In this document: positions 3,751 through 8,752 of the stretch, one piece after another | Layout of the letters: every line of letters begins with the position of its first letter | Position numbering within the stretch: the first letter of the stretch is position 1 | Notes under the pieces: model-generated | What the model was told of the DNA's origin: nothing | The model's database searches: none | The model's input: the letters and a program-made list of their open reading frames with translations, nothing else | Assembly: GCA_019695435.1 (NCBI GenBank) | Contig: JACTVF010000038.1 | Location: forward strand, 1-12,417 | DNA from: Methanoregulaceae archaeon | Lineage (GTDB): Archaea; Halobacteriota; Methanomicrobia; Methanomicrobiales; Methanospirillaceae | Direction of reading: 5' to 3' | Length of the DNA: 12,417 bases | Translations under genes and position numbers: made by a program

Positions 3751-5019
3751 GTGGATCTTTTATCGAAATTCTATTTTAATTACAGCCGTATTATCAAGAC
3801 CATCAAGATCTATCTGCTGCTTGCCGGGCCGGGCCTGATTGTGATGATCGCGGACAACGATGCCGGCGGGATCACCACCTACGCAGCAACCGGGGCAAAA
3901 TTCGGGTACAACCTCATCTGGTTCCTCGTTCTTCTCGGGCCTGTCGCATATTTTGTACAGGAAATGACAGTCCGGCTGGGTGCCGTGACCAAGCATGGGC
4001 ACGCTGAGGCGATCTTCAGTGCGTTCGGGTCGTTCTGGGGCTGGTTCTCTCTCCTCGACCTAAGCATTGTCAACTGGCTGACGATGGTCACTGAGTTCAT
4101 CGGAATGACTGCCGCACTCAGCATCTTCCGTGTCCCCCCGGTTATTACCGTTATCATCGTCGTCTTCGTAATGCTTGGTATCGTCATGTCGGGGCGGTAC
4201 TGGACGTGGGAGAAGATCACCATGGCCTTCTGTGTCGTCAACCTGATCTATATCCCGGCAGCATTTCTCATCCACCCCTCGGTCTCCGATATCTTCCGTG
4301 CCGGTATCATCCCCAACTTCCCGGGAGGACTTAATGGCGAACTCTTCTTCTTCCTGATGGCAAACATCGGGACGACGATAGCGCCATGGATGATCTTTTT
4401 CCAGCAGAGCGCTGTTGTCGACAAGCAGATGAAAGAGAAAGATATTCCCTGGGGCAAAGTTGATACAGCGGTGGGGTCCTTTTTCACCGTTGTTGTTGCA
4501 GTATTTGTCCTCATTGTGACAGGGACGCTTTTGTTTGGCCAGAATATAAGTGATGCCGGCGCTGCAATTGTGGCAATAATGCCCATCAATTCCTATGTAG
4601 GTGTCCTCTTTGCCATCGGTTTATTTGATGCCGGGTTCCTCGGGGCGATCTGCATCGCGCTTACCAGTTCGTGGGCATTCGGTGAGGTCTTCGGATGGGC
4701 GCACTCGCTGAACTACAAGGTGAAAGAGGCGTTCTGGTTCTACATATTTTACTTCTTCGGGCTTATCACCGCCGGTGCGGTCGTGCTCATCCCGGGAGCT
4801 CCGCTGGTACTGATCACCCTCTTTGTTCAGGTGATTGCGGTAACGCTCCTGCCGGCGGCACTTGTCTTCCTTATCATTCTCCTGAATAACGAGGAGATCA
4901 TGGGGAAATACAAAAATACCCTCTTTGACAATATCACGAACATATCAATCGTCATGTGCATTATCCTCATCTCAACACTGTACGGCATCAGCACACTGTT
5001 CCCGAACCTGTTCGGGTGA
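3751..5019 (+). CDS. NRAMP-fold divalent metal transporter (Mg2+-type motif changes)
   Basis: 422 residues with about 11 hydrophobic spans, the normal size of an NRAMP/MntH (SLC11) permease. TM1 has GPGLIVMIADNDAGGITTYA, which lines up with the family's GPG...DPGN segment. The metal-binding Asp is kept (D37), but Pro and Asn are replaced by Ala and Gly (DAGG, 37-40). TM6 has NIGTTIAPWMIFF, where GTTIAPW lines up with GATVMPH: Met becomes Ala (A211) and His becomes Trp (W213). In characterised NRAMPs that Met favours Mn2+/Fe2+ over alkaline-earth ions, and NRAMP-related Mg2+ transporters lack it. I therefore infer Mg2+ or broad divalent uptake. The GTG start has G-rich TGGGGGT just upstream (3741-3747). 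Two genes follow with tight spacing, the second carrying MgtE_N and CBS domains, which supports the Mg2+ reading. Confidence 0.9.
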   Translation: MDLLSKFYFNYSRIIKTIKIYLLLAGPGLIVMIADNDAGGITTYAATGAKFGYNLIWFLVLLGPVAYFVQEMTVRLGAVTKHGHAEAIFSAFGSFWGWFSLLDLSIVNWLTMVTEFIGMTAALSIFRVPPVITVIIVVFVMLGIVMSGRYWTWEKITMAFCVVNLIYIPAAFLIHPSVSDIFRAGIIPNFPGGLNGELFFFLMANIGTTIAPWMIFFQQSAVVDKQMKEKDIPWGKVDTAVGSFFTVVVAVFVLIVTGTLLFGQNISDAGAAIVAIMPINSYVGVLFAIGLFDAGFLGAICIALTSSWAFGEVFGWAHSLNYKVKEAFWFYIFYFFGLITAGAVVLIPGAPLVLITLFVQVIAVTLLPAALVFLIILLNNEEIMGKYKNTLFDNITNISIVMCIILISTLYGISTLFPNLFG

Positions 5020-5033
5020 AGGGAGGTACAGAA

Positions 5034-5249
5034 ATGGTAGCAATTGAGAGTGTTTTCGGAGAACGGATCGGAAGTATTCTACGGGATTCGACCGGGAAGA
5101 TCCGCAGCATTAACCAGAAATATGCAAAGCCTCAGATCAAACTGTCGAGAGGGGCGAAGTTCGCCCTCCTCTTCCTCAGGCTGTACCTCATCTTTCTCAT
5201 TGTCCTGCTGGGGTATAAGTTCTGGACGATCGTCCATGGAGGTACATAA
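5034..5249 (+). CDS. Small single-span membrane protein in the metal transporter operon
   Basis: 71 residues starting MVAIESVFGERIGSILRDST. A basic, probably cytoplasmic N-terminal half (about 1-42, with KYAKPQIKLSRGAK before the membrane) is followed by one hydrophobic span, ALLFLRLYLIFLIVLLGYKF (44-63), and a short tail HGGT. The ATG at 5034 is chosen because GGGAGGT (5021-5027) lies 6 nt upstream. A longer frame back to 4956 would overlap the transporter gene and is not needed. It begins 14 nt after the transporter stop, and its stop overlaps the next ATG by one base (TAATG), so the three genes are almost certainly co-transcribed and translationally coupled. I do not recognise the family. 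A subunit or linker that brings the soluble MgtE-like protein to the permease is one possibility, by context only. Confidence 0.85.
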   Translation: MVAIESVFGERIGSILRDSTGKIRSINQKYAKPQIKLSRGAKFALLFLRLYLIFLIVLLGYKFWTIVHGGT

Positions 5250-6535
5250 TGGTGCAGGAGAATAGCGCGAACACCTCCGCGATGGCAGGGGATCTCCAGA
5301 TCCTTCTTTCCGATATCCTGAATGTTCCCGTCCTCCGTTCCGGGAAAAAAATAGGATCGCTTCTTGATCTCGTGATCGCGGAGACTGCAAAGATCCCGGA
5401 GGTGCGGTCCCTGTATGTCTCCCGGTCTTTTGGCAACCCCAGCCTTCTTATCCCGTGGGAGAATGTCCATACCCTCACCGGCCGGGGGATCGAGGTCACC
5501 ATAGGGGATCTTAAACCCTACGAAACCGAACCGACTGAGGATGTTATCCTCCTGCGCGACTATGTCCTCGACAAGAAGGTGATCGATCTTGAGGAAAATG
5601 AGGTCGAAGTCGTATATGATATCCGGCTTGTCCTGCGGAACAAGAAGCTCTACGTCACCGACGTCGATACCGGAAAAGCAGCCCGTCTCCGGAGGCTGGG
5701 CCTCGGCATGCTTGCAAAGATCCTCTACACCTCTGCCGATACCGAAGCAGAGCAGATGATCTCCTGGAAATACATTCAGCCACTGCCGACAAATATCGGG
5801 AGATTCAAGGGGGACATCAAGCTGAATGTCTTAAAAAATAAGCTTGCGGAGATCCATCCGGTCGATCTTGCGGATATCCTCGAAGAGATGGATCACGATC
5901 AGCGGGTCATGCTCTTCTCCACCCTCGAACACGAGCATGCGAGTGATACGCTTGAAGAGATCGAGCCCAAGGTGCAGCGCGATATCATCTCCTCGCTCTC
6001 CACGGATAAGGTCGTCCAGCTCATCAACGATATGACCCCGGGGCAGGCAGCCGATGTCCTTTCGGTAATACCGCATTCGGATGCAGAGGATATCCTTGCA
6101 GCGCTCAATCCCGATAATGCCAGGAAACTGCGGGCGATCATGGAAAAGCAGGAGGAGAAAGTGATCCACTACACGACCCAGAAGATCCTCAAATTTCTCC
6201 CTGACACGGTAGTTGAGTACGTCCAGAACGATTATCCCCGTCATGCCCGGGGAAAAGATGTTGTTATGTACATCTACGTTGTGGACGGGAGTGACCGGCT
6301 GCTAGGCGTCGTCGACCTCAAGGAACTGCTGAGGGCTGACGACAAGGCGCCCCTCTCCGCGATCATGACGGAGAACGTGATCGCCTTAAATGCGGGAAGT
6401 ACGCTCAAGGAGGCCTCGCAGGAATTCGAGCGGTACAGTTTCCGGGCCCTGCCGGTCATCGATGACGACAACCACCTCATCGGGGTCATCCCGTACCGTG
6501 ATGTCATGAACCTGACCCATCACTTTCTCGAATGA
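5249..6535 (+). CDS. PRC-barrel / MgtE N-terminal / CBS-pair protein, probable metal-sensing regulator
   Basis: 428 residues, no membrane span. Residues about 16-95 (ILNVPVLRSGKKIGSLLDLV) and about 98-180 are two PRC-barrel-like domains, small beta-barrels often used for protein docking. Residues about 196-298 form an MgtE_N superhelix (LAEIHPVDLADILEEMDHDQ, then MTPGQAADVLSVIPHSDAED). Residues about 310-365 and 368-425 form a CBS pair (AIMTENVIALNAGSTLKEAS, RALPVIDDDNHLIGVIPYRD). In true MgtE channels these cytosolic domains bind Mg2+ and gate the pore. Here the membrane domain is missing, and the upstream gene is an NRAMP-fold permease. The ATG overlaps the previous stop by one base and has GGAGGT 5 nt upstream (5238-5243). 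I infer a Mg2+- or nucleotide-responsive regulatory subunit. It could also act on other partners through the PRC domains. Confidence 0.92.
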   Translation: MVQENSANTSAMAGDLQILLSDILNVPVLRSGKKIGSLLDLVIAETAKIPEVRSLYVSRSFGNPSLLIPWENVHTLTGRGIEVTIGDLKPYETEPTEDVILLRDYVLDKKVIDLEENEVEVVYDIRLVLRNKKLYVTDVDTGKAARLRRLGLGMLAKILYTSADTEAEQMISWKYIQPLPTNIGRFKGDIKLNVLKNKLAEIHPVDLADILEEMDHDQRVMLFSTLEHEHASDTLEEIEPKVQRDIISSLSTDKVVQLINDMTPGQAADVLSVIPHSDAEDILAALNPDNARKLRAIMEKQEEKVIHYTTQKILKFLPDTVVEYVQNDYPRHARGKDVVMYIYVVDGSDRLLGVVDLKELLRADDKAPLSAIMTENVIALNAGSTLKEASQEFERYSFRALPVIDDDNHLIGVIPYRDVMNLTHHFLE

Positions 6536-6560
6536 AATGGCTTGTCAGAAAAAAAAGAGT

Positions 6561-6576
6561 GCCGTCCCTGTACGGC
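6561..6576. other. Short inverted repeat after the metal transporter operon
   Basis: GCCGT and ACGGC are separated by CCCTGT. On the minus strand the hairpin is followed four bases later by a run of eight T (6549-6556 complement), and on the plus strand by C-rich sequence. There is no minus-strand gene here to terminate, so its role is unclear. Confidence 0.3.
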
Positions 6577-6627
6577 CCCCTTCACTTCACTGGACGGAGC
6601 AGGCGACCGTTGTTAAGGTGCAGACGT

Positions 6628-7260
6628 ATGAGAGGGAATCACGATGCAGACTGCTGGGATAACGATTATTCCCGGCGGGGACGGGTCTGGGGCGGGGCAG
6701 TCTACGACCTGCCGCAGATTGGTGCCGGCGAGCGGGTGCTCGAACTCGGGTGTGGGAACGGGAAGACCTTTTCTGCACTGCTAGAGAAGAAGTGCGAGGT
6801 TGTTGGCATCGATTTTTCTTCCACCGCCGCGATCCTGTGCAGGTCTCTTGTCCAAAAAAACGCACCCGGGGAGATCGCCCTTGCCGATATTCGTCACCTG
6901 CCATTTGCCGATGCCTCGTTCGATATGGTGATCGCGTTCCACGTGATCGGGCACCTGCCGGCATCCGCCCGTGTCCGCTGCGCTGAAGAATCGGCACGGG
7001 TGCTCAGGGCCGGGGGAACCCTGTATTTTTCCGGTTTTTCACGCGAGGATTTCCGGGCTGGCATCGGCTGCAAGACTGAACCAGACACGTTCGAACGGAA
7101 AAACGGGATTGCCACCCATTATTTTTCCGAGAATGAGGTGCAGGCACTTTTTTCCCCATTAACAGCCGGTGAGTGTTATACCCGGCGCTGGACAATGACC
7201 GTGCGCGGGAAGCCGCTCCCCCGCGCCGAGATCGCCGCAGCGTTTAAAAAAATCTCCTGA
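6628..7260 (+). CDS. Class I SAM-dependent methyltransferase
   Basis: 210 residues beginning MRGNHDADCWDNDYSRRGRV. The Rossmann-fold SAM motifs are plain: motif I VLELGCGNG (37-45), the acidic end of strand beta-2 in VVGIDFS (58-64), DIRHLPFADASFDMV (87-101) and VIAFHVIGHL (101-110), the last two typical of the UbiE/Methyltransf_11 group. The substrate cannot be read from the sequence. The frame is open back to an ATG at 6532 that overlaps the preceding stop, but that would add a basic, low-complexity 32-residue extension. AAGGTG at 6615-6620, 7 nt before the ATG at 6628, decides for the shorter protein. The 92-base gap to the upstream operon has no TATA box that I can see, so read-through from that operon is possible. 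The end runs into a short A-rich KKIS terminus. Confidence 0.88.
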   Translation: MRGNHDADCWDNDYSRRGRVWGGAVYDLPQIGAGERVLELGCGNGKTFSALLEKKCEVVGIDFSSTAAILCRSLVQKNAPGEIALADIRHLPFADASFDMVIAFHVIGHLPASARVRCAEESARVLRAGGTLYFSGFSREDFRAGIGCKTEPDTFERKNGIATHYFSENEVQALFSPLTAGECYTRRWTMTVRGKPLPRAEIAAAFKKIS

Positions 7261-8092: not shown

Positions 8093-8752
8093 TTACTGCC
8101 CGTCCGGTTTCTTCTTCTGCAGGTATGAATTAATGAGCCCGGCAATGAGGAGAATGATCGTTGCCGCCGTCACAGCAAGGACCAGGAAGAGCAGCAGACT
8201 CATATTCTCTTTTACAATACGGAGCCTGCCCAGGTAATACCCGGCAAGCACGACAAGAAGCGTCCATGACACAGCCCCGAGCACGTTATAAAAGAGGAAC
8301 CTGCGGTACTTCATCGTTCCGACACCGGCCAGGAATGGTGCAAATGTCCTTACAAGGGGGACAAACCGGGCAACAAAAATGGTCGCCCCGCCATATTTTT
8401 CGTAAAAGGAGTATGTCCTGTCAATATACTCTTTTTTTATAAAGTTCGGGAATCGTTCCTGGAAGATGTGTAACCCGAGATAGTTGCCCAGCCAGTAATT
8501 GACCGTGTCACCAGTCACCGCCCCCAGGATATATGCCGCGATCAGGAGCTGGAGATTCAGGATTCCGCTTGCGGCCGCAGCCCCGGATACAAACAGCAGG
8601 GAATCCCCGGGTAAGAAGGGCGTTATGACAAAGCCGGTCTCAAAAAAAATGATACAGAACAGTATGAGGTACGTCCATATGCCGTAGTGATGGACAACAG
8701 TGAACAAGTTCTGATCGAGATGAAAGATGAGGCCGACGACCGTTTCTATCAT
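8093..8752 (-). CDS. DedA / SNARE-associated (VTT) family membrane protein
   Basis: 219 residues, several membrane spans, normal DedA length. The two signature re-entrant regions are present: FFETGFVITPFLPGDSLLF (36-54, with E38, P48, G49, D50) and ARFVPLVRTFAPFLAGVG (128-145, with R129, P132, R135, F140). In bacteria DedA proteins move polyprenyl phosphate lipid carriers back across the membrane. Homologues elsewhere scramble phospholipids. In this archaeon a dolichyl- or other polyprenyl-phosphate carrier used for surface glycosylation is a reasonable guess, and the neighbours on both sides are secreted proteins with N-glycosylation sites. The ATG at 8752 has no ribosome site. A TATA-like box centred about 32 bases upstream suggests a nearly leaderless message. 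It is convergent with the first PEGA gene and divergent from the second. Confidence 0.92.
   Translation of the reverse strand: MIETVVGLIFHLDQNLFTVVHHYGIWTYLILFCIIFFETGFVITPFLPGDSLLFVSGAAAASGILNLQLLIAAYILGAVTGDTVNYWLGNYLGLHIFQERFPNFIKKEYIDRTYSFYEKYGGATIFVARFVPLVRTFAPFLAGVGTMKYRRFLFYNVLGAVSWTLLVVLAGYYLGRLRIVKENMSLLLFLVLAVTAATIILLIAGLINSYLQKKKPDGQ

Follow-up and report, generated by a model that had tools for sequence, protein, structure and literature searches.

The window analysed here, 12,417 nucleotides (nt) long, is the entire contig JACTVF010000038.1 of the archaeal assembly GCA_019695435.1. The genome belongs to a relative of Methanoregula, going by the protein matches of the window, is 84% complete, and holds one Nramp and one MgtE_N match (E ≤ 0.001). 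Both lie in a single operon of the window, in which three genes encode a transporter of the NRAMP/SLC11 family, a 71-residue peptide with one predicted membrane helix, and a soluble protein that resembles the cytosolic part of MgtE, hereafter the sensor (Table 1). The open reading frame (ORF) of the peptide follows that of the transporter after 14 nt, begins with an ATG at 5034 and stops with TAA at 5247-5249, and the last base of this stop is also the first base of the sensor ATG at 5249. The tight spacing and the ribosome sites in front of the last two genes had been described in the original prediction, made from the sequence alone, and the coordinates agree with it on both.

Table 1. Features of the transporter-peptide-sensor operon (positions refer to the window)
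Feature	Position	Strand	Evidence or remark
NRMT-type NRAMP/SLC11 transporter, 422 residues, GTG start	3751..5019	+	PF01566 243 bits; EleNRMT 7qia 208 bits; tree
Transporter binding site, half 1, D37-A-G-G40 (NRMT DxxG; canonical NRAMP DxxN)	3859..3870	+	motif definition in passages of PMC8806188
Transporter binding site, half 2, T208-T-I-A211 (NRMT TxxA/T; canonical A/CxxM), then P-W replacing P-H	4372..4383	+	
Shine-Dalgarno-like GGGAGGT upstream of the peptide gene	5021..5027	+	
71-residue single-helix membrane peptide, conserved partner of the transporter branch	5034..5249	+	188 homologues at E ≤ 0.01
Peptide transmembrane core, conserved, containing the motif L-R49-x-Y51-L	5157..5231	+	peptide alignment; motif also in the fused tail
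Shine-Dalgarno-like GGAGGT upstream of the sensor gene	5238..5243	+	
Soluble MgtE-like regulatory protein, 428 residues, ending directly after the second CBS domain	5249..6535	+	
Sensor N-terminal PRC-barrel-like domain, residues 16-83	5294..5497	+	PRC in 60/67 homologues; model strands, block pLDDT (predicted local distance difference test) 70-96
Sensor second PRC-like beta domain, residues 102-178, tentative	5552..5782	+	model strand pattern, block pLDDT 63-92
Sensor MgtE_N domain, residues 202-302	5852..6154	+	
Sensor CBS-domain pair, residues 303-424	6155..6520	+	best Pfam CBS stretch 370-421

Assignment of the transporter to the NRMT group

The first gene had been called NRAMP-like, and the match to the Pfam model PF01566 bears this out. 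In a sequence search of solved structures the best relative is EleNRMT (7qia, 208.5 bits), with the next structure at 58.0. Passages of PMC8806188 define NRMTs by the motifs DxxG and TxxA/T, versus a DxxN/AxxM site in canonical NRAMPs, and report that EleNRMT carries Mg2+ and Mn2+ without proton coupling. The ion site of the window transporter has both NRMT motifs, the first histidine of helix 6b is replaced by Trp, and the stretch IAPWM aligns to EleNRMT without a gap. Canonical NRAMP/MntH proteins have the same fold and differ at this site: neither DxxN nor A/CxxM is present in the window transporter, which also falls far short of the NCBIfam MntH model (105.9 versus a cut-off of 430). Given the EleNRMT match and the DxxG/TxxA site, the permease is, by signature, an NRMT. 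The earlier suggestion that an unrelated permease fold had acquired gating by Mg2+ is thus not sustained, as both the site and the nearest structure belong to a known group.

A scan of named genomes yielded 575 confirmed transporter relatives, of which the best 80 were retained (46-73% identity, from many bacterial and archaeal bins; the taxon labels are titles of metagenome-assembled genomes, and individual bins may be wrong). These loci partly overlap with the survey genomes mentioned below (e.g., L064 with G062, L075 with G242, and L081 with G297). TxxA/T is found in all 80 and DxxG in 79, the exception, L103, having no residues aligned there, and a methionine at the selectivity position is found in none (0/80). 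L103, from a Methanosarcina bin, has a transporter frame broken by one in-frame TGA and one TAG, next to open peptide and sensor frames. Four peptide-bearing loci outside this signature (L156, L158, L180, and L181) read DAPS or DGPS and ATVT where the window has DAGG/TTIA, and have no sensor match; considering the changed site, they possibly move another substrate.

A tree was built by a quick method; it is unrooted, includes no named MntH, has its long branches flagged, and omits five loci (L103 for its broken transporter, L060-L062 as poor matches, and L047 as near-identical to L048). In it, the peptide-bearing and fused rows (see below) fall together in one fork (support 100), separate from the EleNRMT branch, and nine distant NRAMP rows are split off from the branch of the window (100). 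EleNRMT joins the branch in which the sensor gene lies upstream (91), not that of the window.

Occurrence and properties of the one-helix peptide

Using a profile built from 120 of its homologues, the peptide was matched in 77 of the 80 NRMT loci (E ≤ 1), on the strand of the transporter. In the three others, L126, L130, and L137, the sequence ends 2, 125, and 661 bases past the transporter. Both peptide and sensor are present in 73 loci; the peptide gene comes before that of the sensor (transporter-peptide-sensor) in 49 and after it (transporter-sensor-peptide) in 24. The genome surveys gave a similar picture. Among 294 genomes of the phylum of the window, the peptide was found at E < 1e-22 in eight, which are exactly those with the transporter branch of the window, and the more distant NRAMPs of this phylum (L051-L062) have no peptide match. 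Within 398 phylum genomes around G297, it was found at E ≤ 1e-5 in seven, in all of them adjoining transporter and sensor; the same seven are the ones with NRMT matches below 1e-150, and 60 other genomes of this survey hold more distant family members, fused ones among them. In 134 genomes around G299, each of the 15 peptide matches at E ≤ 1e-4 adjoins a transporter match. When clade models were used to sort the top 30 transporter loci from these 134 genomes, all 11 of the window's branch had the peptide (inside the locus in nine, just beyond it in L217 and L219) and a downstream sensor, versus none of the 19 EleNRMT-like loci, 11 of which have the sensor upstream within the available stretch.

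The peptide also occurs at loci that have no sensor. L140-L142 are of this kind, and the peptide was recovered there even by a second profile from which these three loci had been left out (E 3e-5 to 4e-11); two of their genomes have no MgtE_N match and the third has one short match at the cut-off. L158 likewise has the peptide and no sensor. A Bacillota bin (G294) contains at least five NRMT paralogues (L140, L154, L155, L156, and L157), each with an adjoining peptide or, in L157, a fused one, while no MgtE_N match was found anywhere in this bin and no sensor beside any of its transporter paralogues. The original prediction gave the 71-residue peptide no role; judged by these distributions, it accompanies this branch of transporters more constantly than the sensor does.

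In the relatives, peptide length is mostly about 35-90 residues, and the mean net charge across 77 peptides, whose starts were assigned by script, is +4.4 on the N-terminal side and +0.3 on the C-terminal side. The ratio of non-synonymous to synonymous differences (pN/pS) is 0.07-0.25 in the four comparable pairs out of six chosen. A search with 30 peptides gave no convincing Pfam or NCBIfam family (best E 0.035 and 0.05, respectively, each for one member) and no match among solved structures. In a sister branch, eight transporter ORFs of 514-556 residues carry a peptide-like segment fused at the C-terminus, and these loci have no sensor match within the available stretches. The free-peptide profile matches only this fused tail (best E 1.4e-7): out of 50 transporter windows, 47 gave less than 1% and the other three are the tail itself. 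The tail shares the motif L-R-x-Y-L; among 109 fused proteins, 99% keep R523 and 97% keep Y525. Such fusions give indirect support for contact between peptide and transporter.

The MgtE-like protein and its pairing with the transporter

In archaea as well as in bacteria, the genes for an NRAMP-fold transporter and for an MgtE-type protein without a pore are linked in the genome. In the 294 genomes, a transporter and a sensor of the window's type occur together in eight, with the transporter gene first and the sensor gene 232-314 nt behind it; in G285 the gap is 433 nt and the sensor match begins at residue 63. Ten further genomes have a more distant pair with the sensor gene first, and in one of them a second transporter adjoins a second sensor that is broken. 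At L197 (G054:C124), a sensor with three stops in its match adjoins an intact transporter frame. The conserved adjacency expected in the original prediction is therefore not confined to this genome. As a central claim, the association of a separate MgtE-like sensor with this permease is right in outline but was already known: the pairing and the idea of regulation were in print for bacteria in 2014, in passages of PMC4072509 (Shin et al. 2014) stating that most NrmT members adjoin a homologue of the N-terminal cytosolic part of MgtE, for which feedback regulation or a chaperone role was proposed.

The published NRMT operons share with the branch of the window the binding-site signature, the neighbour resembling the MgtE N-terminus and M-box control of some members. 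What the branch of the window adds is the one-helix peptide gene, in every one of the 80 loci with enough sequence. With respect to the EleNRMT branch, the sensor gene lies downstream, not upstream, of the transporter gene, and the two branches are apart in the tree. The passages of PMC4072509 on NRMT operons and complementation mention no such peptide; the sensor pairing being known, it is the peptide partner that appears new. Sensors have either been lost several times or been recruited more than once.

The sensor matches MgtE_N (80.7 bits) and CBS (58.9 bits) in Pfam, and PRC barely at the threshold (21.3 versus 21.2), although 60 of the 67 scanned family members match PRC at E ≤ 0.01. From the layout proposed earlier, PRC-PRC-MgtE_N-CBS-CBS, the MgtE_N, CBS, and first PRC domains hold. 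The second PRC domain corresponds to a similar strand/helix pattern in the AlphaFold model only, and a profile comparison of the two PRC-type halves did not confirm it (3%). That the protein is soluble and pore-less is also supported, as no membrane-domain family was found by Pfam within its 428 residues, and its score against the equivalog of full-length MgtE, TIGR00400, is 116.5, below the cut-off of 232.75. Compared with MgtE of Thermus thermophilus (2yvx/2zy9), it has the MgtE_N domain and CBS pair, with the same fold across sensor residues 188-428, but it lacks the pore and the plug-helix Mg2+ sites, has one or more additional N-terminal PRC-type domains, and is a separate polypeptide.

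The protein could be a brake that Mg2+ closes in just the way known from MgtE, which we regard as unlikely. Of the eight MgtE Mg2+-site positions named in passages of PMC5882242 (E59, D91, D95, D226, D247, D250, E258, and D259), three are kept acidic in the window sensor, and the plug-helix sites E258 and D259 fall past its C-terminus, so that it is doubtful whether gating by Mg2+ was carried over unchanged from MgtE. The comparison was extended to pools of 51, 22, and 8 sensors, not all those found (the split sensors L115, L137, and L139 were excluded, and the 51 include a few near-duplicates, e.g., L007/L064). D91 is lost in all 51 sensors of the transporter-peptide-sensor order and in all 22 of the transporter-sensor-peptide order; D226 is retained in 13/51 and 0/22, and D250 in 3/51 and 0/22. 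These losses also set sensors of the window branch apart from those of published NRMT operons. In the same 51 sensors, the ATP-pocket residues of MgtE are better kept (Y170 in 51, F227 in 48), though N203 is present in only three. In the archaeal branch resembling EleNRMT, the eight pooled sensors (L011-L015 and L018-L020) have the reverse pattern, with D91 kept in 8/8 and Leu in place of Phe227 in 7/8. In complementation results of PMC4072509, co-expression of the MgtE-like partner gave no extra Mg2+ rescue by the transporter of Acidobacterium capsulatum.

The Mg2+ link and the reading of the operon

Of 92 loci scanned for riboswitches, four have an M-box on the same strand, 300-522 nt before the transporter match, with scores of 126-142 bits (cut-off 44). 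They comprise a transporter-peptide-sensor locus (L087), two transporter-sensor-peptide loci (L113 and L119), and a transporter-peptide locus (L155), so that each of the three gene orders in which the free peptide occurs is represented. Going by the sequence evidence, we consider it probable that the operon encodes an importer complex for Mg2+, and probably Mn2+, made of an NRMT, a dedicated one-helix subunit, and an accessory cytosolic regulator. The 422-residue LeuT-fold core would be the entry path for Mg2+. The peptide, with its N-terminus in the cytosol, would pack against the transporter in the membrane and may stabilise it or tune its cycle. The PRC/MgtE_N/CBS protein would dock from the cytosol and throttle import in the replete cell, reading adenine nucleotide, Mg2+, or both. 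We infer the complex, the direction of regulation, the ligand of the sensor, and the ion moved from these genomic patterns, in which the sensor is best read as a dispensable regulator.

The transporter might instead have Mn2+ or Fe2+ as its main substrate, and Mg2+ would then be the wrong reading for this branch; this seems somewhat less likely still than an unchanged MgtE brake. According to passages of PMC4072509, the relative from A. capsulatum, which has an MgtE-like neighbour, fully rescues manganese uptake but allows a magnesium-transporter mutant to grow only with magnesium in the low millimolar range, and EleNRMT also transports Mn2+ (PMC8806188). Against this, riboswitches for Mg2+ precede four members of the peptide-bearing group, and the selectivity methionine is missing throughout the 80 loci. 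It is improbable that the peptide is just a membrane anchor for the sensor with no direct role in transport. Its gene does directly precede the sensor gene in 49 of the 73 loci holding both, and the positive charge on its N-terminal side predicts that this side is cytosolic; however, the peptide is kept without a sensor at L140-L142, L158, and four more paralogues of G294, the eight fused loci have no sensor match in the available stretches, and sensors of the other branch (11/19 loci) occur without it. Mere neighbourhood without functional contact, with co-transcription for dosage and the peptide as a regulatory or leader ORF, is very improbable considering the purifying selection on the peptide sequence, the varying gene order, and the fusions.

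Several observations weigh against the importer complex as proposed. No riboswitch precedes the operon of the window, and no M-box was found in the seven fused loci (of eight) that were scanned; M-box control is known for some NRMT members only (passages of PMC4072509), and therefore its absence in the window does not exclude membership. A CorA gene is also present, and the NRMT operon thus need not be the only route for Mg2+. CorA occurs in 28 of 30 genomes of the genus, and in a congener its gene (G261:C1:1213447-1214301, minus strand) is divergent to the NRMT operon, whose transporter lies at 1214865 on the plus strand. No peptide was found in the EleNRMT branch, and since EleNRMT transports as a purified protein (PMC8806188), the NRMT fold itself needs no peptide. 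In the same tree fork as the peptide-bearing rows, L182-L184 have a DxGS/AVIM site and no peptide match, perhaps a return to transition metals. In addition, 42 further genomes of the 294 have peptide matches at chance level only (7e-4 to 0.1), the strongest of them inside an 892-codon frame. On the fusion side, single matches to the tail are weak (13-20 bits in seven ORFs, none at E ≤ 1 in L173), so that the argument for fusion depends on comparing profiles; DxxA stands in place of DxxG in six of the eight fused ORFs; and the fused model has a pLDDT of 88.8, with 84-88 in the tail helix, a measure that alone is no proof of packing. For the sensor, the partial loss of its Mg2+ sites counts here too, and one paralogue (L196, G039:C90:239-1594) is an orphan adjoining no transporter or NRMT. 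Finally, passages of PMC4072509 describe manganese transport for one relative and an MgtE-like partner that was not strictly required for NRMT transport in the tests made.

Around the operon, a methyltransferase ORF (6532-7260) overlaps the end of the sensor gene by four bases, although its true start may be further down, and a VTT-domain (DedA-type) membrane protein is encoded a few genes away (8093-8752, minus strand). At a related locus, a cobalamin riboswitch (L079:7157-7351) lies downstream of the operon.

One-helix membrane proteins that serve a single transporter are known elsewhere: MAP17 is the one-helix partner of SGLT2, itself a LeuT-fold transporter, and KdpF is another case. MgtS serves MgtA in this way (review PMC13209247). 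The window peptide may be analogous to them, with no sequence relation detected, and differs in that segments of its type also occur fused to the transporter. In a bolder form, which we put forward tentatively and hold to be about as open to doubt as to belief, if not slightly more so, this large NRMT branch, spread over several phyla, would be an obligate hetero-oligomer, requiring for a working transporter a one-helix subunit with L-R-x-Y-L, its sensor re-tuned from Mg2+ towards adenine nucleotide and droppable. To our knowledge, NRAMP transporters have been studied as single polypeptides. If this is true, the NRAMP/SLC11 family would gain its first described small subunit, either free, with its gene before or after that of the sensor, or fused at the C-terminus. 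A conserved one-helix partner would explain part of the build of this branch and gives a direct experimental handle. Since there are natural operons that have or lack the sensor, and others that have or lack the peptide, a comparison among them makes the question of the MgtE-like partner raised in 2014 testable.

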